Positions 11,511-44,134 of a DNA stretch of 64,000 nt are shown piece after piece. Under the pieces are notes generated by a model. That model made no database searches. It saw nothing but the letters and a program-made list of their open reading frames with translations, and was not told the origin of the DNA. The stretch covers positions 25,281,315 through 25,345,314 of the forward strand of contig NC_045141.1 of NCBI RefSeq assembly GCF_008831285.2, read 5' to 3'. Every line of letters begins with the position of its first letter. The stretch's first letter is position 1. The translations under genes were made by a program, and so were the position numbers. Source of the stretch: Nymphaea colorata (Eukaryota > Streptophyta > Magnoliopsida > Nymphaeales > Nymphaeaceae).

Positions 11511-14500
11511 ATGGATCCTTCTCATCAAGCCTCTCCTCCCGCCTTCACCTTCCTCCACCCAAACCGTAACCTTGTCCCTAATTTCGCCTTCACCCATCCA
11601 AACCCTAACTCCAATTTGTCCTTCGTCCCTCAAAACCCTAACCCTAGCTTCATCTTTGCCCCTCCCCCTCCCCCTCCCGCCTCTATCCCTCGACAGGCGC
11701 CCCCAGACCTCCGGGCAACAGCTTCTCTGCTGAAATCACTGATCGATCATGCGGAGCGTACGGTCAAAGAGGTCTCCGATCTCCTCCATCTGCAGAAACC
11801 CCTTGCTCAGGTCCAGTTCTCATCTTGTCCGTACGATTCCCGGCACAGAATGCCGCCGGAGGACCTATTCCTTCACTATCTTCGCTGTCCTTCTGCGCCT
11901 GGGAACGTCGACCCGAAGGAGTTGCCCCCGCCGAGCTATCGGAGTTCGCTTAAATCGGAGCCGGACTTACCGTCGGAGAACCACTTCTTCGGTCGCCTGG
12001 AAGAGTCAGGGGAAGATCTCTGCTTTTCCCTCGATGAGGAAGCGGGATACAACGCTAATTTCTTTTACAGGGACTGTCCTGGTGTGGTTGGGCCCCCGAT
12101 TGATGCGGATACGAAGCGCATTTTCACTCTTCCTCCCGTTCTTTCTGCTGAATGCGTTAATTTTGGTAGCAAAGAATTGGACATCAAGAATCATCGGCCG
12201 AGATTCCTTCCTTCAGAGTTCTGGGAATTGAAGCGTGAGGTGATGGGATGGATTGATTATCCGGCTAGGTGTTCTTTCACCGTGCATAGGGCCGTTTTGT
12301 GTTTGGGTAACCTGAAGAAGGTCGACGTGAAGAGATGGATAGTTTCAAATTCCCCGTTGCATGGGATCGTAATAGACGCTGATATGCGAGATCATTTATT
12401 CCTTCTACTGAAACTCTGTTTGAGAGCAGTGTCAAGAAATGCAGACTGTTGTATGGAAGATATCTCCGGGAATTGTTATTCTGACTGTCCGGTTCTTTTC
12501 GAGAGCTTGTCATGGTTGGGCTCTCAGTTGACAATTTTATATGGACAGGTAAACGGGAAGCTCTTCGCAATGAACATGGTCAAGCACAGTTTGCTTGGTG
12601 CTGCTCGTTCTTCGTTGTTATTCCAAATAGCCGATGAGCTTGAAGTTGAGTGCCATGTCGAAGATGGTCCAGTTGACAGGCCTTCTAGAATTGGAAATTA
12701 TGGTGATCAAAGATGTCCAGATGGTGGACAAGTACTCGGCGGAGAAGAGGTTTACGTATCACGAGTAGCTGCTGCTGTAGCTGCATTGTTTGAGCGTGCT
12801 TCGTTGGAGGAAAGGATAAAGGGTTTGCGTCTGTCTGGAGCACCCTCCAAATTTCAACGGTAAGATCTATATACATAACGTCTGTTGCTTGTTTGAGGTT
12901 GGTTCTGTTGTTAAAGCCTATTATCCGTTTGGAAATGTTCTATTTTGTTATTTTGCATCGACTTTTATATACCGTGGTTGTGAATCTTATCCTTGTTCTT
13001 GCACTGTTTGGAATCCCAGTAGCTCTTGATAACAAGCATTTTATGTAGTTTCTTTGCATAAATTCTTTGCTAAAGTTGGATTCAGATCATAATTCAGATA
13101 AATATTTTCTTGAGTACTGGTGTAAGGCTGTGTAAGACACCAATACTCCTATTTTTCCATCAATTTGTCAGAATCCCTGAAAGTTAGGAAGACTGAGCGT
13201 ATAAAGTGATCCTTCATGTTACTAAGTATGGGTTTAATGGATAGTGTTTTGAAAAATGGGAATATACACCATTCTGTTGATGTTTGGTTTTTCCTGAACC
13301 TCATGCTGTGTCTTGTATTTTTTTTTTTTAAGGAGAACTTAATGGACGTTTAAGAAATCCTTTTGGCTCTAAGGCCAAAAAACTATTAAACGTGTTCCCA
13401 GTATCTGGTAGGCACTATGTCCAGCCACTTTGATGACCATCTTGTTAACATTGTGTTTTCCTGCATAATTTCAGGAACATACTTATGCAAATTTAAATGT
13501 TCTCACAAATTTCATTATCCAAATTATGTGGACCATTTTGAAGATTTAGAGTTTGTTATGACTCTTTTTTAAATCATGGGACATGTTTCATAGAATGTTG
13601 TTATTATGCTAAATTTGTTTCCAGTTTGCAATAATTTTTCTACCTATATTGAGCAATGTTTTCAAACCCACTGACTTGGAACTTGACTCATCCATTCTCA
13701 ACTCGTGACTTGGCGGGCCAACTCAGTGACTCAGGCTGGGTTTTGTTAACTATTTTTTTAAAGAAAAGACAATCTATACATTGTTTTTAAACATAAAGTA
13801 AAAGTGTAATGACCTAATTAGTTATGTGACGAAAAAAGTAAGTCAAGCTAACAGCAATTAAAGTCCTAATTAAGTTATTTGACATGGATGAGGATCACAT
13901 TGTACATGATGCCACCTAACACCAACTAACAGATACAATCTAAAAGATGGATCATGGATGACACCAGTGGTAGCACCACAGGACACTGATCTTAGAAACC
14001 AAACATATTCCATCTCAAATTTTCTTCTCTTCTCTTAATAATTAATATGCATATTCAATGAGGGTAACAGAAAAGAGTGATGTGCATTATAAATTATAGA
14101 ACTTGAAACCTTAGAAGCCACAAAAGAAACCATATGCATTCAGTCAAATAATACTTATTACAGATTTTGAAACCTCAAACGCTACACAAGAAATTGTATG
14201 TATGATTGCATTCAGTCAAAGAATAAAATACTTGTGATTAAGAAAAAAATCAACACTCAACAACACCTGCATGCCACATAGTATATAAATCCTGATTTCA
14301 AACTTCAAAGGCCCAAAAGTGTGGATGCTGGAACAGTAAAATTGGTAAAGGAAAGACAAAAGCATCTGTTGGAAAAGGAGAAATCGAGAGGTTCTAGAAA
14401 GTGTAAAAGAGAGGGTGGTCTTGGAAAAAGAGAGAGAGGAAGAGATGGCATTAAGAGAGAGAGAGAGAGAGAGAGAGATTGATATGCTGAAAAAAGGGTG

Positions 14501-17500
14501 AGAGATAAACGATTGGAAATAATGACAGAGAGGGGGATAAAAGGGAGAAGCAACAAAATCAATAGGAAAAAAAGGGTACATTAGATGTTGTCGGCTTCAC
14601 TATTCCTATTAGTGCACTCGCCAGATATACTGTTCCTGCCAGTGCCAGTGCCCGAAACCAGTCGATAAATCCTGAAGGGTTACAAAATGAAAAGTAAAAA
14701 CTGCCCCCTAATGTCAGATTTCTTGTTGAGGTTTGATGCTGGTAAAGTTGTTGGAACAACCACCTCCCCCTCCTGCCAGTGTGGTTGCCGGATTGAGGTG
14801 GATGGATAAAACAAATGGGACATTTTCATAGGATTAGGATTTTCTTGTTTCATCATCCCTCATCGGTGTCACGCAAAGGTAAAACAGAAACAAAAGCCCA
14901 TCTGTTGGGTTTCTTATATTTGATGAAAAAAATACCGTAAGGCCTTTAGCTCATCAAGAAAAAATAACTAAAACTCGCCCAAGTCTTGTTTGACTCGTGA
15001 CTCAGCCAAGTCAAATGAGTTACTACTGAATCACACTGAGTCTTTAATGGAAACGAGACTGCATACTGGGTTGACCCAGTAGGGGGCCGAGCCAAGCCAA
15101 CGGCAAAATCAACAAGCTGACTCAGCGAGTTTTTTTAACATTGATATTAAGGACCCAGGGGCAAACTGTGGCAGATTCTTTGGCCTAGACATTCATGTTA
15201 GCATGATACACCACGATGTTAAGGGTGATCACTAGTATATGTAGCTGAGGCCGAACTAAAGCAAACATGGATAAAATGATTCAGTGTGGTGAAAATCATG
15301 GATTCAAACCACTGGTATTTTTAAATCCCATATTTTATGTGAAATCCAATGAGACTCTGGAAGCAGGTCTTGGAGACTACTGATTGACAATGAAATGCTG
15401 AAACATGCTACCTGAAAACTGGCTGAGATTAGTATGCTGCCAAAGATCTTCTGTCAGTGTTATCCCCTTTTAAGTGTCGTCGAAGGAAGTTCCTTTGTGG
15501 TCTTAGATCCTGGAAAGAATCAAGTTTTATCATTTGAAGCTATAGTTTGCAGAAAAATTATCTAAAGTCGCATGGTTGGCATCCATCAGTTTCTCTTGTT
15601 TTTTTCTTCCTTTATATATCTAATTTAGTGTCTGGTGTCCATGATGTTGAATGATGCTCGTTTTTTGCCTGCAAGTCAATTTTCAATGTAGTTAATAATA
15701 GCATTCTTTTTATAGGTTAACAGAGCATGCACAGGTTTCTACTAGGGCTGATGAAGTGCGCAGAGGGCGCCTTGAGTATAGACCTATAATTGAACATGAC
15801 GGACTTCTGTGGCAACGATCTCAAGACCAGGTTCTTTTTTCTGCTTTAGAGTCATTTCTTTATGCATGGAAGAACACTTATTTCACATTTGCTTTCCATA
15901 TAAGGGCGTAGGTTATACATGGTTATTTTGAGTTTTCTGACAGAGATGCAGTACAGGTGTGGGAGTAGCAGAGCCATGTGCGAGCCAAGGTTGAGTACAT
16001 GGCCACCCTGACCTGAAAAGTTCAGCACAGAGGTTTGGTCCAGGATGAGCATCTCACCCTAAAACCCTCCCCTAGTAGGCTTGTGCTCCCCATCCTTTTT
16101 CCAACCCTTTTCTCTTTTTGAGGAAAAACCTTATCCTACCGGTATCTGAACACCTCTTTCGGTGTTCTCTATGGAGTGTTGTCTCTGGTGCCCTTTACAG
16201 TACATATTTCTGCTCCAGCCACTGCATGAGAAGTGTGTAAAAAATTGCATTATGTTTTGAGGAATGTATAAAGAATGAAGTTTGTTTTGTTTTGTTTTTT
16301 TCATTTTCCTGATACCTTTTACTCTAAATTGCCACTTGATATATGCTCATTTTCTCTGGTGCTGCCTTTTTCTGGCTCATGTTTTGAATTTTTTGATATT
16401 GTTTGAAGGATGATGGAAGAAAGCTCAAGACAAAGGAGGAGCTCTTGGCTGAAGAAAGAGATTATAAACGTCGGCGAATGTCATATCGTGGCAAGAAGGT
16501 TAAACGGACACCAGTACAGGTTGTTATCTTATTGTTGGTCAAAGAAATTCCTGAACTGTGAAACTGCATTGGTGACTTGTTCAGTTGCTAATTTATAGTT
16601 TTATATTCTCTTCTGTATTTGATAACTAAACTTGGCTCTGTTTTCATTGGGCCAGGTTGTTTGATTACAAATAGTGGGTAATCTATTTAATATAGAAAGC
16701 ACCAAGAAGTCTGTTTTGTGTCTAAACTTCAATGGTTATGAGTGGCTGGTACCCACTTCGCAACCACAAAACTCAGAAGTGAATTGGAAGATTTAGGGTT
16801 TGCTTCTAACATGTTCATTTTCTCTCTCTCCCCTCGTCAACACCCCCTCCCCCCACCAAAAAAATAAACCTAATTTTTATTTGTTTAATAACAAAAATAT
16901 AATTTTTAGTACTGTCATGTGTGTGTGTGTATATATATATATATATAGGTAGCTATTGTGTGTTGGATGTTGTTAAATGGTTAAAAATAAAAAATCTATC
17001 ACTAAAACGTTGTTGCATGAGCATTAGCAACAGTTTATGGTGCAGCAATGTTTGATGGTACTTGTACATATATATATATATATATAGGTAGCTATTGTGT
17101 GTTGGATGTTGTTAGATGGTTAAAAATAAAAAATCTATCACTAAAAACCGTTGTTGCATGAGCATTAGCAACAGTTTATGGTGCAGCAACGTTTCATGGT
17201 ACTTATATATATATATATATATATATATATAGGTAGCTATTGTGTGTTGGATGTTGTTAGATGGTTAGAAATAAAAAATCTATCACTAAAAAGTAAAAAC
17301 CGTTGTTGCTATGTTGTTGCATGAGCATTAGCAACAGTTTATGGTGCAGTAACGTTTCATGGTACTTTTAGCAATGATTCATGCTTTCATGGTACTGTTA
17401 ACGACAAATTTTTAATTTTTAGCTATCCAGCAACATCGTACATACGACATCATGAAATTCTCCTATATGTATCAACAAAGACAAAAACACATATACAACT

Positions 17501-20008
17501 AGCTTATTCGATATGTGTCAATGTTGTAAAAGGAATATCGTACATGTATCGGTCGGGCCTACCTATACACTATATGGTAACGTAGTGTAATGTATCGTAA
17601 ATTAATTTTTAATTCATAACAGTTTTTCAAAAAATTAAAAAACAGAGAAAAATTAGAAAAAATCGGTAGAATCAGGAAAAACAAAAAGAAATCAGAAAAA
17701 ATGTGTTCTATTCTATGTAAAAAACTCCATCACTTCATTCATATGCCATAATATATTAACAACACATTTAGAAATGACAAATAAGAAATTCATAATAACA
17801 TAAGAAACATCCATCACAACTTTAAAGTTTAAATTTAAAGCATTTTAGATTACATTACAAGTTTGCAACAAATAATGTATTATGATTATCATCAATCAAG
17901 GTCTCCCCACAGGGCCATGAGTAAACCTTCTTATGCACCAGCGACTTTTCCTCTAAATCAACAATTTATCACATAAATGGATGATTTTTGTAGAAAAACT
18001 AGTAAAACTTCCCCCTCTCACAACTTTTAGACCTGTTTAGAAAGAGGGAGAGGGAGGTTCTTTTGTCAAAGCTACAAAAAATCATTTTATCCTCGTATCG
18101 TATGACACAGAGGTGTATCGGCTGTATTGTATGATATGGCCGATGATACACAAGCTTATCTTTTACGCAAGCGTATCGTGGGATACAAATAACACTGACA
18201 TATGTATTTCAAAAATATATGAATTTAGATACACATATGCATAGCCTGGGTGATATATACATTGCATACACTATAAATTCATTTTTTATTCAAATATGTT
18301 ATGTTATCTAATATTGTAATAAATTTATGTTAGCAAAACATACAAAAGCACTTTTATATGCAACTGGTCATTCAGCTTCTTACCTTCTAGCTGGCATCTT
18401 AGAAATTGATAAGTGGAGAAGGGTAATAATGTAGCTTAATGGCTGATAATATTGAAAAAAAGGTTGCACCTAAAAATTTATGTTCCTTAGGTTAAATAAA
18501 GTTTCCTTTTGATCCTTGTTTGACAGGTTTTGTGAAAAATGTGGCCCTTATTAGGAAAATGCAAAGGATGGGACTTTTTCTGGAATAACAGGAAAATGGT
18601 AGGCACAGAAACGGAAAATTCCCTTAACATTATTAGGTATTGTTAGAGAGGTTAAGAGCTTATTACATTATAATCAACATAAAATTTGCTTATAGTAAGG
18701 GTATTGTGGTAATTTTATTCATGAACAAAGTTAGTCATAACCTAAGGTTTGCTTCATATAAGATTATTCTTAATTAATGGTCAAAACAGGTGTGAATTGA
18801 TTAGGGTTGAATATTATTCAACAGTCCAAGCCAAAAATTTGAATTGGATTCAGTGGAATCTGTCCTTGTGAAAAGGATTGCACAACATAAAAGTCAGATT
18901 TCTCTTGTTTTGTGAAGTCTTGAAGAAGGGTAAAAAAAAAACTGGGGAGCATAAGGCACCATGAGGATGTTCATTCTGATTTCCTGACCATAAGTTTTAA
19001 ATCTGTTATGAGAAAGCTGCAAAATTAGAAATAGATGTTAACTGAATTTGCATTTAATGTAGAACGAACCACAAAAGGTTGGCCCTTAACAGGCAGAAAT
19101 CTGGGCATAGATGCTGCCTGATCTGATTCTGAGTTGATTTAAGTTCAGAAATCTGGGCCGAATCATGTATATTTTTTTCTCACACTCCTAATCTTTATTA
19201 ATTCTCAACTGGTGGTCAAAAAAATAAAATTATTTGACTTGCTTCTGTCTTGCCGTGTGGTTTTTTTTTTTTCACTTTTGAAAAGCAATTTTATTTTCCT
19301 TTTTTGAAGGTGTTAAGGGATATAATTGAAGACCACATGGATGAAATTACACGTGCTGGTGGCATTGGATGCTTTGCAAAAGGTGCAGAAAAAGGAGTTT
19401 TGTCTCTTGAAGCTATTTCTGGCAACACTGCGACCGCAGATATTCATGAATCTCAGGGTGTCTCCTATTGTGCATCAGATGACAGACTGTTTGTAAAGAA
19501 TGATAGAAATGTTTCTTATGTAACAGAAGAGGTCCATTTGCGTGGGGTCCAGACAAGCAAAAGCTATAATTCACAAAGTGTTTCAAACAAGGGAAATTGG
19601 GGCGAGTCAATACATTATAATCACCAAAACAGCAGTCAAAAGGCCCTGAGTAAGGATAAACATGATAGAAGTTACAGATCAAGAAGCCCACCTGGTGTGA
19701 GAAGTGCCAGGGAATACCTGGATAAGTATGAGCATGGGGAAAGGAAAGATCGTATGGACGTTCGGACGAAAAGTATGCACTCTTCTAGAACAGGGAACCA
19801 CAGTGAAAGATCACATTCTTCATCAAGACAAAGGGTATCAAATGAAAAAGGTTACACAGGATGGACAATAAAGGAAGATAGATGGAGCAGCGGGATGTAT
19901 GGAGGAACTTCTTCAGAATCTAATACACTACATATGTTGGAAGATAGATATGATCCTTCTCTGTCATATAATTCAGAAACCTATGGCTGTGATTATTATG
20001 GAAGCTAG
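11511..20008 (+). CDS. SNRNP48: U11/U12 small nuclear ribonucleoprotein 48 kDa protein (U11-48K)
   Basis: Four exons join cleanly: 11511-12859, 15716-15830, 16409-16519 and 19310-20008, giving 757 residues. U11-48K contacts the 5' splice site of U12-type introns in the minor spliceosome, in the nucleus. The N terminus has Asn/Pro-rich repeats and a proline run (about 51-56). A CHHC zinc finger of the U11-48K type follows at C106, H112, H122 and C126 (C-x5-H-x9-H-x3-C). Exon 3 encodes the basic block YKRRRMSYRGKK, and the C terminus is Arg/Ser-rich (SYRSRSPPG; SHSSSRQR). The start is the ATG in CCTCCATGG; the frame is open further upstream but without an ATG. Donors of introns 2 (GTTCTT) and 3 (GTTGTT) are weak; intron 1 has GTAAGA. 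Introns 1 and 3 are about 2.8 kb each and full of transposon-like DNA. A tandem U12-type splice-site motif lies 231 bases after the stop, a likely feedback control. Confidence 0.93.
13654..15143. mobile_element. hAT-like non-autonomous element in SNRNP48 intron 1
   Basis: The left end reads CAATGTTTTCAAACCCACTG. The reverse complement of the right end reads CAATGTTAAAAAAACTCGCT; both run on into sequence rich in GACTCAG-like motifs. The flanking 8-mers are ATATTGAG (13646-13653) and ATATTAAG (15144-15151), 7 of 8 identical, as expected for a decayed 8-bp hAT target duplication. The body (1,490 bases) has no transposase frame and includes a (GA)n tract at 14454-14478. The assignment to hAT is inferred from the duplication length. 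Confidence 0.65.
16920..17375. repeat. Three tandem units, each led by a (TA)n tract, in SNRNP48 intron 3
   Basis: A unit of (TA)n plus about 117 bases is repeated three times; the non-(TA) parts start GGTAGCTATTGTGTGTTGG at about 16948, 17087 and 17232. Shared blocks are GTTAGATGGTTA-AAATAAAAAA, TCTATCACTAAAA, GCATGAGCATTAGCAACAG and TTTATGGTGCAG. The third unit has a small internal insertion. The layout recalls microsatellite-flanked elements such as rice Micron, but I cannot show homology. Confidence 0.85.
17519..18197. mobile_element. Terminal-inverted-repeat element in SNRNP48 intron 3
   Basis: The left end is CAATGTTGTAAAAGGAATAT followed by CGTAC. The reverse complement of the right end is CAGTGTTATTTGTATCCCAC followed by GATAC. 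Both arms are rich in GTATCG motifs. Flanks include ATATGT on both sides (left CGATATGT with a two-base offset, right ACATATGT), a possible decayed 8-bp duplication. The body is A/T-rich with no coding potential. Exact ends are uncertain by a few bases. Confidence 0.5.
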
Positions 20009-20118
20009 TGATGGATTGAAGATCAGCATGCATATAGTGGAGATGTGTCCAAGAAATTTCTTCACTGAAGGATCCAAAGAAAAAGTGATGAATGAGTGGC
20101 CTTTGTCAGGGGAGAGGA

Positions 20119-20197
20119 GTAAGTTTCAAATTCTTGATTTTTTGACAATATGTGCCTCCTTTTAAAATTAACAAGGTTCAGTCATATGTTTGTGCAG
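20119..20197 (+). other. Predicted 3'-UTR intron of SNRNP48
   Basis: A consensus donor GTAAGT starts at 20119, and TTTGTGCAG ends at 20197, giving a 79-base U2-type intron. It lies wholly after the stop codon; the last base of the stop is 110 bases before the donor. Splicing it would leave an exon junction far enough downstream of the stop to trigger nonsense-mediated decay. The acceptor lies 41 bases before the tandem U11-binding motif at 20239, as expected if U11 bound there activates this acceptor. Usage is inferred, not shown. Confidence 0.55.
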
Positions 20198-20238
20198 TAA
20201 GAAGTTATTCAGGGTTCGAGAATTTTTTTTCTGCTCCT

Positions 20239-20258
20239 GTATCCTTCTTTGTATCCTT
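20239..20258 (+). promoter_or_regulatory. USSE: tandem U12-type 5' splice sites (U11 snRNP-binding splicing enhancer)
   Basis: GTATCCTT occurs at 20239-20246 and again at 20251-20258, four bases apart. Each is a perfect match to the U12-type 5' splice-site core. Tandem copies of this site are known as the USSE in U11-48K and U11/U12-65K genes of animals and plants: U11 particles bind the pair and activate an upstream 3' splice site, producing mRNA that is degraded or retained. Here the pair lies just downstream of the U11-48K coding region and of a candidate acceptor (AG at 20196-20197), so motif, gene and layout agree. Confidence 0.85.
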
Positions 20259-20916
20259 AACTTATAATTTTGGCATGATCAAGGCATTGAGTGTTCTCAA
20301 TCTATCACTTAGGTTTTTATTGCTTCATTCCTTCTCCTCCTTGTGAATTGATTCATCCTGCATGTTATATTTGACTATATCCTGTTATAATATCGTTTTG
20401 CTACATGCTGGTATGATTTCCTAGATCATCATATTACATCTATTTTCGTCTTAGGCATTTGGCACATACTGGTAATGACTTGTGAAATGCCTTTTATGCA
20501 GTATGTTCTTGTTTATTTATGGTGATCCGAACCCTTTGGGATCAATAGATATGGTTGGCTTAAGTAACACTTTGTTGATTTTGTTGAATATTAACCTATG
20601 CAGCTATAATTTATTTATCATTTTAGCTTATCCTTGTGATTCACTGGTGTCAAGAATTTATCTTGCCTTTTCTTTTTGTTGTTTCCATTTTATTGGAAAG
20701 ATAACAATTTCTATTGGAGTTGACAAAGCAATAGGCCTTATAAAGTCATCGAAACTAGCATTAGTCTTGTGTTCTTTTGTGTTGTTTCTGTTTTATTGGA
20801 AAGATAACGATTTTAATTGGAGCTAAAATATAGTAGTTGGTCTTATCAGGTCATTGAATATATCATTCCCTAATGTGGTTGGCAACAGACTAGCATAGAT
20901 CATCCAAAATTTCTCA

Positions 20917-21220
20917 TAGGCTGTTCACAAGCTGTTTCGAATCGAGCTGAGCCAGCTCAAACTCGGCTCGAGCTTGAGTTGAGTTCAATTTCATTAGCTT
21001 GAGCTCGACTCCTCTCAAGCTCTTACAACTCGAACTCAGCTCAATTAAGCTCGAGCCTAAGATTGACTTGACTCTAAGCCTGGGCATAGGGTTGGGTACC
21101 GGGTACCCAGCCCAAAAAAAAGCACCCGCGGGTAGCCCCGACTAAGCGTGATTCGGCCTGATAATTTTTTAATATTAATTTTATTGATTTTTATATATAA
21201 ATTATAATATTTTATTACTA

Positions 21221-21292
<72 letters not shown>

Positions 21293-21681
21293 TTTGAATC
21301 GGGCTGGGCCCGGGCTCGGGTTTCAAGTGTTGGGCCAGCCCGATGCGCATGCCTACTTGACTCTTGAGCCAAGCCAAGCATTCATTAAAAAATTATTTTT
21401 TTTAAAGCGGCAGCATGTGGAATCTCCCACGTGCTAGTCGCGTATATACCCATTTGAGCAGCCTACCTTTTTTGATAATTTTATGAGACGTATTTTATAT
21501 ATATTTTTTTCGAGCTTAATTAAGTTTAACCGAGCCGAGCCCACTCAACTCGAACTCGACAACTCATTTATGTTGTCGAGTTCATTTCTTAACTCGAACT
21601 CGACCCGTTTAATATACGAGTCAAGTTTATCGAGCAAGTTCGGGTTGAGCTTGAGTTAGCTCAACTCGTTGAACAGCCCTA
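20917..21681. mobile_element. hAT-like MITE (outer), split by a second element
   Basis: The left end reads TAGGCTGTTCACAAGCTG and the reverse complement of the right end reads TAGGGCTGTTCAACGAGTTG: the same terminus with two small gaps. Both arms are rich in CTCGAGC / GAGCTTGAG motifs, so the whole folds back on itself. Without the nested insertion at 21075-21355 and its 8-base duplication it is about 476 bases. Flanking 8-mers do not match, so the insertion is old or an end is eroded. Confidence 0.7.
21075..21355. mobile_element. hAT-like MITE (inner) with perfect 8-bp target duplication
   Basis: CTTGACTC flanks the element exactly on both sides (21067-21074 and 21356-21363). The left end TAAGCCTGGGCATAGGGTTG matches the reverse complement of the right end TAGGCATGCGCATCGGGCTG at most positions. 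The centre is a long (TA)n tract (about 21225-21290). The 281-base length, inverted ends and 8-bp duplication fit a hAT-type MITE inserted into the outer element at 20917-21681. Confidence 0.85.
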
Positions 21682-27217: not shown

Positions 27218-29008
27218 TCAGCTGAACTTTTGGCCGCCCAGATCCTCGTAATTTACAAAGGTGCCGTGGAAACCGTACGGCACCCGAGACGGCAACACCA
27301 CTGCCGCTTCCTTCTCTAGGGTCGCCGAATTGATGATCAGCAACTCGGACCGCCCCTTCACCTCATCATGCACGTACGTCACGAGGTGGCCGTCGTCCTC
27401 CCGAGCCGACTCTCCCGAGTCGTGAACGAAGCAAGGTTCGCCCCCGAACCGGCAGTTGCCGTACAGGAACTTCTCTGCACGGCCCGTCTCCATATCGACC
27501 TTCGCGATGCCGGAGCACCTTGGCCACGGCTCGACGATCGCAAGGTAGGCGTACCTTGCCTTCCTCCCGAGACGCTTCCGGTTCACCTGACCTGCCTCCA
27601 GGTTCATGCCCGGTACGAGACACCTCCGCCTCGACTCGCCGGTATTGATGTCGAGCCGAATCTCCGTTAACTCCGTCCGCAGTGGCTGACTGCAATCGGA
27701 GAACATCGCGTCGGCCGGCGACATGCAGGAGCCGATGACGACCACCTCGCCGGAGCCCGGTTCCTCCCATGCGTTCCATATGTGGAAACAGAAGCAGCCT
27801 GGTACGTCAATCCACCTCAGTCGTTTTGCGTCGGTATCGTACCTCGGCATGAGCCCAAACCTGGCCACCTTGCGCTTGTCGAGCACGACCGGTGATCCTC
27901 CTTGGAGCATCTCTCCTAGTCGGAATACCACCTGGTGGTCCGGTACGACGACGAGCCTCTCCGTCACGGCGAAGTCGTGGATCATCGTCGGTTCTTCGAG
28001 AGCTATCGGAACGTCGGAGACCTTTCGGCCCGTAGAGTCGAAGGCGAAGTACCGGAGGTACGGTCGCCGAACGACATCATAACCAAGTCCGAAAAGCTCG
28101 CCGGTGGCGGGGTCGACCTTCGGGTGGGCGATCATTGCAGAAGAGAGCTGGCCGGAGAAGTCGAACCGGCCTGCGGTCTCCAGTTCACCGTCTCTACCGA
28201 TGCGGACGTGGTATGGAACATCATCTTCCGAGAGCGCAAGCAGCCGGCCATCAAAGAAGACGAGCCCCGCGTTCGCGACTCCGGCGCCGCGCCCGGCATC
28301 GACGATTCCTGAGGCCGCCCGGGCATAAAAGAGCAACAATCGGGCAACGCCGGAACGGCCGTGAAGCTCGCCGACGGCCTTCGGGAAGAGCGGCCGCCCC
28401 GCCTCCCTCTCCCGCTCGAACCTGTTCGTCCTGGTGAACCGGCAGCAGTAGCTCGCCCCACCGTCGGGCCGTATGGTCACAGCGTGGATCATCCCGTCCC
28501 CGTCGAAGAGGTGATGGCGGCCTGATGGCGCGAACGCCGGATTGGCGCCGTTCCGCATATAAACTCCCGCCAGACCCTCCGGGATCCGTCCTTCCACCGT
28601 CAGCCCGTCTTGCACCGGGCACTCGGCCACGGGTGCGAAGTTTCCAGCGAGCTGCACCGCCGGGTCCGCGCTCTTCGGGATGGCGCTCAACCTCTCCATC
28701 GGCTCGATGATCCCGTGCTCGAGAGCATCCAACGCGTACGCTGCCAGACGCTGCAACGGGTTCAATCTCCACGACGAAGAACACGATGGCGTGGTGGCAG
28801 TCGACGGCATGGTGCGTCCAGCACTCAATGGAACAGAATATGATGCAGAGATGGAGCGATCCACCGAATTCCCGCATCTCGAAGTACAAACCGCTTCTCT
28901 TTTTCCAGTAAAATTCGTCTCCGATCGCCATGAATTGAAGAGAGTTGGAGGGCGGTGGTCATGGTGCTGAATTGTGGGAAAAGCTGCATATGGCGCACTG
29001 GCACCCAT
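27218..29008 (-). CDS. NCED: 9-cis-epoxycarotenoid dioxygenase (NCED6 type), chloroplast
   Basis: A single intronless frame of 596 residues. NCED cleaves 9-cis-violaxanthin or 9'-cis-neoxanthin to xanthoxin, the committed step of abscisic acid synthesis, in plastids. The four iron-binding histidines are visible: H295 (MIAHPKVDP), H344 (TMIHDFAV), H409 ([12 protein letters not shown]) and H581 (PYGFHGTF), with the conserved glutamates in EEP, NLEAG and GGEPCFV. The first 80 or so residues are Ser/Thr/Arg-rich and fit a transit peptide, followed by the amphipathic helix [18 protein letters not shown] that docks the enzyme on the thylakoid. I chose the ATG at 29008; the frame runs nine codons further without another ATG. 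MIHDF, SCMSP and CSGIAKVD match NCED6 better than NCED3. The gene is strongly GC-rich against an AT-rich background, producing long spurious frames on both strands. Confidence 0.93.
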
Positions 29009-29097
29009 GAAGAAAAAAATGCCGTCAAACTGCAATTGGGAAATACCCCTCCCACCCTTCCACCCATACGTTACTTCAGCCGGCCTTTCTCCACACC

Positions 29098-29241
29098 TAT
29101 ATATATATATATACGTCTGAAAAAAATCGGCTTAGTCTCTATGTACATGACCGATGGAGTGGGCACGTGGTAGAGGTGAGGGCTGAGGGTGACGGGGAAG
29201 CTTTCGGCACGTGGGAAGGCTGGGAGGGAGCAGGGACGTGG
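29098..29241 (-). promoter_or_regulatory. NCED promoter: TATA tract and three ACGTG boxes
   Basis: A (TA)n tract at about 29098-29114 sits some 90-105 bases before the ATG and can act as TATA box. Further upstream are two perfect G-boxes, CACGTG at 29164-29169 and at 29208-29213, both followed by G (ABRE-like CACGTGG), and a third ACGTGG at 29236-29241. Such clusters are bound by bZIP and bHLH factors and often mediate abscisic acid or light response. Function is inferred from sequence only. Confidence 0.5.
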
Positions 29242-40150: not shown

Positions 40151-43100
40151 TCATTTGTTAGACCTGGCCTCGAATCTTGCACCTGAAACAAAAAGAACAG
40201 ACAATCTATTTACTCCACCGCTACCTAGTATTTTTTCATACGTTACAAAGAAATGAAGATCCTCTAATATTTAGAACAATAGGTGGCTAAGAATACCCAA
40301 CAACTCAGGCGGGCAGACGGGCAGAGATAGGTACAAGTCTCAATGAACGGTTTTTATAATTCTTGGTTTTTAAAGCAGATATTGGTGAATGATAAGTACT
40401 TACCAAGGCCATTGACTTCGCATGTTCTCATGATTCTAAGCCTCCTTACAGTGCTCAAGAACATGCTGTACAAAAGAAAGGAAACAGAACTGGGATTAAA
40501 GAAAGCGAAGATTGCGATTTAAACAGGGCAATTTAGTGAATATGGGGTTATGATTTACTCACTCCCATGGTACATCTCCAACTAGCATCCAGTCTCCCTC
40601 CTTATCTTCATAGGTAAGGACAAACTCTGAGTTGCCGTCTAGGAGTTTTGAAGATTTGCCTTCACCAATCACTCCATGCTCATTCTCCAGAGCGAAAACT
40701 GGAACTAACAGAAAAAATACAAGACCCATCAAGAGGTTAGCAAAATATCACAGAGACAGGGATAACACAACGGAGTGTTTCCATCATCCATACAGGAAGA
40801 TGAACACCAAAAGTCAATGCCAAAAGACTCAAAACTGATGGATTTTTTTCTCATATGCAGCAGTAAGGCATGAAGGGGAATGAAGAAGCACAGAGAAAAA
40901 AGTAGATCCACAATACAGAACACAATTAATTTAATTCAGTTGCTACAAGCAGGCAAATGGTTGGAAAAGTATGTTGATTATCAAAAGCAAAAGAGGCCAG
41001 ACAAGGAAACATCAAAATCATGGAGTGTCCCTTTAGCGTGCAAAAGCAAAGAAAATAAATACAAGATATGACACATAACGGAGGCAGTCACAAAGCTGCG
41101 AGCATCATTCAAAGACACATTTAAAGAATATGACCTAAAGCTTCACAGTCAGTCTCGGAAAATTGTCTAATCCATGGTTGTGAAATTTTATTTGTAAAAG
41201 CCTTAACGAGTACTACCCCTTCTGAAGTTGATTGTTGATTCAGGTGATGAGACAGAGCAGGCTTAAAAATTCAAGTTGCCAGACCAACAATGGAAATGTT
41301 AAAACCAGAGAATCAGAACACAGACAAGTTATCAGGCAAGAGGTAGGTAATACTTAAAACAAGGACACATGCAAGCCTTGAAGAACCTTAACAAAGTGAG
41401 ATCTATATACAGACGCAGTATTGGCAAGAGCAGGCTCAAAATTGAAGAGGTAACACTAACACTGGAAATGTTAAAACCAGAGAACACAAACAAGTTATCG
41501 GGCAAGAGGGTAACATTTCAGAAAAAACACAAATGCAGGCCTCAAAAAGTTGCAGATCAGCTTTCTGAATTTCAGACAAAGTTATTAACAAGCATACTGA
41601 ATAGCCAAAGAAACAGCTAGAAACTCACGAATGCCATTGGTGGTACGCCTTTTGAACATCTCCTCTAATGCATTAGCCAAGGATTCATAGCAGGAATGTG
41701 TGTTCAGATCTACCTTCCTGCCAATGGGAACTCCATCCATGTTAACTTTAACAAACATTGATTTTCCATGCCCTGGTACCACTTTCTCTTGCCTGCCCTT
41801 AGTTTTACCCATCCCACCAAAGTTGTTCCGAGACATGTTGCTGTTAGCATCATCTGCAGTTGGAACTCTGCTTTGGTTCACCAGACTGTTCATTCTGTAA
41901 GCTCTGATAGGAGGCCAGCCTACCACTTGGTTGTTGCTAAATTTACAGTGAAAATGAGCAAGTGAGTAACGAGAATATATATTTCTTGAAAGAAACATAT
42001 AAAACCAAAATTGAAAAGGAAAAAACAAGAGAAGTACACAATTTCCAAGACCGAGACACACAAAAAAAGAATACTCAAGAAAAAGTACTGGAAAAACAAA
42101 AAGGGAACAGAGGCGGCTATTTGAAGGCTAAGCAGTAAAATGACGAACATTTTGCTAACAAAATCTTAAAAACAAGATATTTAAAAAATCAAGAATAAAT
42201 CACAAAAGAAAAAGAAAAAATCAAGTGTTGCCCAACGACGAAGAGCATGTAGAAAGAATAATTCTATTGCCACAAGGACACAATCAAAAATCATGAACAC
42301 GAGGAAAAACCCCAAAACAGGTAACAAAGAAAAAAACAGAGTAGCATGTGAACGACGCATAAGATTGTCTCGCTACTGGTACCGAGTGAAGAAACTATCG
42401 TAAAATCAAATATTTACTGAAGAAACTAAATGCGGACGAAAAAACATTGTCAAAACACCATCATCATGAAATCTTGAACAATCATTATCACTAAAATGTA
42501 ATGAACAAGCCATCCTTAGAGATGACAGAGTATGGCTATTCAATCTTTTGTAAATATAAAAAATACTAGAAAACAAAGGTTAACCCAATGCCCGTGAACA
42601 TGCAATGACAGCATGACACTAAGAACAATAAAAGAACCGGCAAATAAAAAATGGCACCGTATATTATTATGAGAGGAAAACCAAAAACCACCATGACATC
42701 AAATGATGAAACATGCAGCAACGAAGTAGACGCCCGAGAACGAAAACAATTGGTACCATCAAAATAACGAGTGGCCATAAAACTAACAGAAAAAATCAAG
42801 ATCTAAAGAGAAATACAGTTACGCAGAGAAAAGGCCATACAATAGGGACAAGCCCTAGACAAAGAATAAAACGAAAAGGAAGAAACCACTGGAGGTCATT
42901 CCTCCCAAAACATAACAGAAGAGCACGAAATAAATCGTAAAAACCGAGACAACGTAAAAAATCGTTATGGATAAGCAGTATAGTTACTTAAACAGGCTAG
43001 AAGAGAAAACAACTAATTGCAAACAACGTAACTAAAAGCACAGAAAAAAACGAAAATGGAAAAAAGCCTGTAAGTGCAGGACCGTAAGTGCAGAAACAAA

Positions 43101-43990
43101 CATGGACTAAAAGGTTTACTTAAACTAGCATACAATGACACATAATAGTGATATACCATTATCGTCTTTCTTCTTCCTCCGTGCATCAAAACCAGAAAAA
43201 GCAGAACGAGAATAAAAAAGAAAAAAAACATGACGTCTAAAACCAGCTGCAGTGCAACCCAATACAGTTTCATTCGTCTAAGAAAAGAAAGCGCTAACAA
43301 CCCAGGCATAACAGGGAAATTTTTTCCGTCCGCTTTTCTTGCATGGAACATATTTCGCAAACGAACAGAAGGAACAAACACATTCATAAAACCAGACCAC
43401 CATCTTATTTTCACCTTGGAACGGAAAGAGCTAAAACCACAAGTAACGGAAGAAGAAAGAAGAGAGACATTTCCTTCTCGCTAAGGAGCTAAAGCCACGG
43501 ACAACAAAAGAAAAAAGCAAGAAATTTACTTTTCTTCGGTTTGCCTGCTTTTGTTGTTTCTTTACCTTGGAACAGATGTAACTTCCTGAACTGAATCAGC
43601 ATCAGCAGATTCCCCATGCATCCTCCTCCCTCTGAAACCCAAGGAAGGAACCATGTTAGGAAGGTCCCTGGCAGTCAATATCCTCCCAGTCCTCTTGCTG
43701 CGGCCATTCCTCCTAGACGAGCAATCCTCACCCGCAGGACTCTCGCTCAGGGTGTTCAAACTCAGGCCAAGGTTGAGTTCCGTGTCCCTCAACCCCATGG
43801 CGTCCTCTTCCCTCTGGACCATCAAAGCACCACTGGAATAAGAAGAGATCTCAGATATTCCAATGTAGTCTTGCTCTGTTAGACAGCCAACACCATTATT
43901 GTCCGCATTTGACGCCGTTGACATTGAGACGTTGGTAGAGCTTCCTATGCACGACCCACCTCCCCTTCCCCTTATAAGGGCATGCTGCAT
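40151..43990 (-). CDS. IAA: Auxin-responsive Aux/IAA repressor, IAA11/12/13 type
   Basis: Five exons on the minus strand: 43990-43566, 41936-41629, 40704-40563, 40465-40404 and 40182-40151, giving 322 residues. Aux/IAA proteins are nuclear repressors that bind ARF factors and are degraded when auxin joins them to TIR1/AFB receptors. Domain I is the EAR motif TELNLGLSL (about 70-78), which recruits [18 protein letters not shown] (about 102-112) is typical of the BODENLOS/IAA13 group. Domain II is the degron [11 protein letters not shown] (146-156), intact. The PB1 region has [16 protein letters not shown] (about 202-217, with the conserved lysine) and the acidic face in [17 protein letters not shown] chose the ATG at 43990, the first in the open frame. 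Exon 1 also carries an N-terminal Gly/Ser-rich extension. All splice sites are GT-AG, and phases join exactly. Which of IAA11, 12 or 13 it matches best is not settled. Confidence 0.93.
41257..41547. repeat. Imperfect direct repeat inside Aux/IAA intron 2
   Basis: A unit at 41257-41382 returns at 41429-41547, 172 bases on. Shared blocks are GAGCAGGCT-AAAATT, TGGAAATGTTAAAACCAGAG, ACAAGTTATC-GGCAAGAGG and ACA-ATGCA-GCCT. It has no coding role. Confidence 0.8.
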
Positions 43991-44079
43991 TCTCTCTATC
44001 TGGTTTTTGCTTTTTCCTGCTGCTCCACAAATACCCACAAAGGAGAAAAGAAAGAAAGCAAGAGAAAAGTTGGATTCCC

Positions 44080-44134
44080 GAGACACAGAGAGAGGGGATC
44101 AGGGAAAACGGTAATGAGAAGGAGGATTATATAT
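44080..44134 (-). promoter_or_regulatory. Aux/IAA core promoter: TATA box and an AuxRE core
   Basis: On the minus strand TATATAAT lies at 44134-44127, about 140 bases before the ATG. GAGACA at 44080-44085 is the complement of the auxin response element core TGTCTC, the binding site of ARF factors. A single core occurs often by chance, so feedback by auxin is only a suggestion. Confidence 0.35.

Follow-up and report, generated by a model that had tools for sequence, protein, structure and literature searches.

A U11-48K gene followed by paired U12-type 5′ splice site motifs

The subject of this study is a putative U11 snRNP-binding splicing enhancer (USSE; snRNP, small nuclear ribonucleoprotein) in Nymphaea colorata, which consists of two U12-type 5′ splice site-like motifs behind a gene for the minor spliceosome protein U11-48K (48K). 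It lies in a stretch of 64,000 nucleotides (nt) of contig NC_045141.1 (positions 25,281,315 to 25,345,314 of the forward strand), which we call the window and whose first base is position 1.

The gene was modeled on the + strand with four coding exons. Exon 1 (11511-12859) carries a CHHC zinc finger, exons 2 (15716-15830) and 3 (16409-16519) are model exons, and the last coding exon (19310-20008) ends with the stop codon TAG at 20006-20008. Joined, the exons form an open frame of 757 codons. We picked this model by eye among the many in-frame combinations that resulted from permissive exon joining; several donors of exon 3 keep the frame, and 16519 was also picked by eye. Exon 1 matched the Pfam family zf-U11-48K (PF05253; E = 7.7e-7, 29.3 bits with a cut-off of 21.1), and its single match in the genome was itself. 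The 757-residue model contains exactly one CX5HX9HX3C motif, with the zinc finger in the N-terminal half. Arabidopsis U11-48K, with 714 residues, has the same zinc-finger pattern (PMC4892727). U11-48K proteins have an arginine-rich region in the C-terminal half; the last 277 residues of the model hold 27 arginines, 39 serines and 20 lysines, which may correspond to such a region. No solved structure resembling exon 1 was found at E 0.01. Based on the Pfam match above the cut-off, the one motif and the single genomic match of exon 1, the gene upstream of the pair is identified as U11-48K, as an initial annotation of the window had claimed.

Downstream of this gene, on its sense strand, two exact copies of GTATCCTT resemble U12-type 5′ splice sites. 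They are located at 20239-20246 and 20251-20258 (+), the second being followed by AACT, and are separated by a spacer of 4 bases (CTTT). The first copy starts 231 bases downstream of the stop codon, in the non-coding part of the gene. All of this agrees with the positions and distances given in the initial annotation. We searched the genome assembly (407,766,735 bases in 783 contigs), with letter-reversed patterns as controls, and the exact pair GTATCCTTNNNNGTATCCTT yielded one match, at the 48K site, compared to 9 for its control. The 322 bases 3′ of the stop codon likewise matched only themselves in the whole genome. The predicted RNA structure around the element was unremarkable (z-score 0.06).

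The pair is very probably a USSE

USSEs are tandem U12-type 5′ splice sites in 48K and 65K genes that are bound by U11 but unused as donors, and that activate an upstream U2-type 3′ splice site, which leads to unproductive mRNA (PMC3584512, PMC5473595, PMC8329584, PMC6865273). They have been identified in two gene types, 48K among them (PMC6865273); in animals, they are present in both 48K and 65K, and exon definition and feedback have been described for them (PMC3584512, PMC5473595, PMC8329584). The interpretation as a USSE in the initial annotation is supported. That annotation treated plants as awaiting comparison; however, a review has already described the feedback as conserved both in animals and in plants (PMC3584512), and the Nymphaea 48K element most likely adds a further case. 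The passages on USSEs that were consulted do not state where the element lies within plant genes, although such a statement could be in print. The abstract of Verbeeren et al. 2010 reportedly names plant genes too. The plant USSE of that study, which is cited for plant conservation in PMC3584512, is probably the same element as the one in Nymphaea.

We propose that the pair is very probably a USSE, because its exact form is unique in 408 Mb and lies 3′ of a gene type known to host USSEs, and because sense pairs with a spacer of 0-24 are hardly expected here by chance (0.0004 for 11511-21000, which spans the gene, and 4e-5 for the kilobase that follows the stop codon, dinucleotide model). The identity of the gene, the paired motif and a candidate upstream U2-type 3′ splice site all fit this reading.

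The genome also encodes the corresponding machinery. One U11 small nuclear RNA (snRNA) gene and one U12 snRNA gene were found above the Rfam cut-offs (75 and 88.9 bits, respectively). The 5′ end of U11, UAAAAGGGU, is complementary to AUCCUU of both copies, with pairing energies of −7.4 and −6.1 kcal/mol.

A candidate intron in the 3′ untranslated region

Between the stop codon and the pair we predict a U2-type intron of 79 nt in the 3′ untranslated region (UTR) (20119-20197, +; GTAAGT...TTTGTGCAG; 70% A+T). Its donor lies 110 bases 3′ of the stop codon, and its acceptor is separated from the pair by 41 nt (20198-20238). Donor 20119 scored 5.3, which 246 of 3164 + strand GT dinucleotides in the window equal or exceed, and the acceptor ending at 20197 scored 7.2, which is reached by 104 of the 3873 AG on this strand. 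The junction 20118/20198 named in the initial annotation is thus borne out in so far as both sites are present in the sequence (donor GTAAGT, acceptor TTTGTGCAG), but their scores are only moderate.

We infer the following route for the binding of U11, the use of the intron and decay. When the U11/U12 di-snRNP is plentiful, it would bind both U12-type 5′ splice site copies without their use as donors. By exon definition, the bound particle would activate the U2-type 3′ splice site at 20197/20198, 41 nt upstream, and this site would be spliced to the donor at 20118/20119. With the resulting junction 110 nt 3′ of the stop codon, the mRNA would be subject to intron-based nonsense-mediated decay, and the level of 48K would fall. 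When U11 is scarce, the intron would be retained and the mRNA would be stable. Decay is triggered in plants by spliced introns that lie over 50 nt 3′ of the stop codon, as tested at 95 nt (PMC3711448). An intron in the 3′ UTR combined with decay appears to be the most economical output route. This exact route may well be the one in use, and the explanation as a whole, from the USSE through activation of the upstream 3′ splice site to decay, is probably correct.

Alternatively, the pair could be a USSE whose activated 3′ splice site is used with a different donor, such as that of exon 3 (16520), or delimits a cassette exon together with a downstream donor at 20411, either of which would lead to a truncated protein or to a long 3′ UTR retained in the nucleus. 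Model exon 3 ends in phase 0, and acceptor 20198 directly precedes a TAA that splicing of exon 3 to this site would bring into frame; the donor at 20411 scores 8.0, and the animal 65K USSE acts via a long 3′ UTR and nuclear retention (PMC5473595). However, the nearest donor, 20119, alone yields a compact intron, and we consider a different donor unlikely.

The proposed USSE resembles that of animal SNRNP48 (U11-48K) in having tandem U12-type 5′ splice sites inside the 48K gene, in their predicted position 3′ of a U2-type 3′ splice site, and in the predicted loss of productive mRNA. It differs in lying 3′ of the stop codon, where it adjoins the candidate 3′ UTR intron. With the USSE of animal RNPC3 (U11/U12-65K) it shares a U2-type 3′ splice site and the 3′ UTR as proposed targets, whereas the output of the latter is a long 3′ UTR with nuclear retention, and the host gene is a different one (PMC5473595). 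Plant SMG7 and Barentsz are autoregulated through 3′ UTR introns more than 50 nt 3′ of the stop codon that lead to decay, as proposed here; unlike the Nymphaea candidate, their introns are efficiently spliced, and the part of the source that describes them names no U11 sensor (PMC3711448).

Observations that weigh against a USSE

Several observations speak against the USSE reading. Apart from the moderate scores of both candidate splice sites, three acceptors between 20.0 and 21.0 kb (20110, 20502 and 20850) score 7.4 each, alike or above the candidate. Additionally, by U11 pairing energy, the strongest 13-mers that cover the two copies come only 159th and 324th among 2500 nearby. Pairing energy by itself does not set the element apart, and we rejected it as a discriminator; it ignores the contact of the 48K protein. 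Recognition of U12-type 5′ splice sites also requires contact of 48K with the first three intron bases (PMC3584512).

Further, the 65K gene provides no second case. We represented it by three RRM exons (C1:41655404-41661586, minus strand; 52, 48 and 40% identity to human 65K) and, unlike in animal RNPC3, found no RTATCCTT pair in the 30 kb fetched around them. Allowing one mismatch per word and starts 8-38 bases apart, this region held two pairs in total: one, ATATCCCT/GTATCCTG with a spacer of 16, is located 8 kb 5′ of the RRM exons, and the other, two copies of AGATCCTT with a spacer of 13, is a 21-base duplication within the intron that follows the first of these exons. In the 12.4 kb after the last RRM exon there were 10 single one-mismatch words and no such pair. 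With no comparable pair 3′ of the gene, 65K was rejected as a second internal USSE case, and by this pair test 48K alone of the two genes shows a USSE in this plant. Judged from their frames by eye, two other RRM matches were rejected as 65K, one being poly(A)-binding-protein-like (L043) and the other U1A/U2B″-like (C688); the matches on contigs C10 and C6 were left outside the comparison.

Finally, tandem pairs are not enriched genome-wide over the letter-reversed controls. G-G pairs with a spacer of 0-24 occurred 10 times (control 34), pairs with ATATCCTT first and a spacer of 0-12 occurred 38 times (control 73), and G-A pairs with a spacer of 0-12 occurred 6 times (control 5). The weight of the evidence lies in the location of the pair. 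RTATCCTT-N4-RTATCCTT pairs were listed 10 times. Six of the loci (L011, L017, L018, L039, L040 and L041) appear by eye to be one dispersed repeat family, in which RTATCCTT-N4-ATATCCTT followed by a T run mimics the paired motif, and L023 is, also by eye, a variant of the L021/L022 repeat. Removal of the repeats left three pairs (the window, L004 and L010), compared to 1.3 expected per genome (dinucleotide model), and the excess at spacer 4 was dropped as a signal.

The pair at L010:1501-1520 (ATATCCTTATTTGTATCCTT) is in sense orientation and flanked by exon-like frames of a different gene, which by eye encodes a BTB/POZ protein with a discoidin-like part; two pieces of this gene that were tested had no Pfam match. 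This pair is within the chance expectation, and visual inspection revealed no clear 3′ splice site upstream of it. A weak second pair in the window, at 20377-20397 (ATATCCTG and ATATCGTT, one mismatch each), lies 119 bases 3′ of the element. It is probably due to chance, because both strands of the window hold 4 such weak pairs, this one included, besides the exact pair.

Chance and use of the copies as donors

The pair itself could be a chance repeat of a common 8-mer. As a lone word, GTATCCTT is unremarkable: it occurs 4 times in the window, compared to 1.85 ± 1.26 in shuffled sequences, 8 of 100 of which reach 4, and the lack of genome-wide enrichment points the same way. The pair, in contrast, is remarkable. 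Given its unique exact form and the expectation stated above for the first kilobase 3′ of the stop codon, we regard chance as a poor alternative and highly improbable.

The second copy overlaps a word with one mismatch to the U12 branch-site consensus (20253-20262, ATCCTTAACT), and the next AG follows 23 bases on. Copy 1 could be read as a docking site for U11 and the branch-like ATCCTTAACT of copy 2 as one for U12, so that the whole di-snRNP would occupy a decoy mini-intron whose short length precludes splicing, and 48K would be the sole such sensor in the plant; we consider this composite site very doubtful. It is scarcely plausible that either copy, or both, serves as a functional donor for a U12-type 3′ UTR intron, even though each is an exact U12 donor core and copy 2 overlaps the branch-like word. 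Between 20.0 and 26.0 kb, branch-like words with no more than one mismatch occur at two places only: at 20253, whose next AG would give an intron of 45 nt counted from copy 1, and at 21585, which has no AG within the searched range. Words with two mismatches and a subsequent AG do occur in this region; no word with one mismatch or fewer is followed by an AG at the usual distance of 8-21 nt, which speaks against a plain U12-type intron as judged by these patterns.

Other genes in the window

Two further frames on the − strand matched Pfam families. The frame at 27218-29131 (637 residues) belongs to the RPE65/carotenoid-cleavage dioxygenase family (PF03055, E = 8.3e-129), and that at 41585-42127 matched AUX/IAA (PF02309, E = 5.4e-28). 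A third frame, at 43562-44098 (−), had no Pfam match; it contains the word LNLGLSL, which presumably fits an AUX/IAA kind of gene.

Implications for minor spliceosome feedback

Given that no similar pair was found at 65K, one may ask whether plants sense the minor spliceosome through 48K alone. If the proposed USSE holds, the switch would be present in Nymphaea colorata, and thus in an early-diverging lineage of the flowering plants. The level of the minor spliceosome would then be tied to an intron in the 3′ UTR and to mRNA decay, which would make for a compact system.
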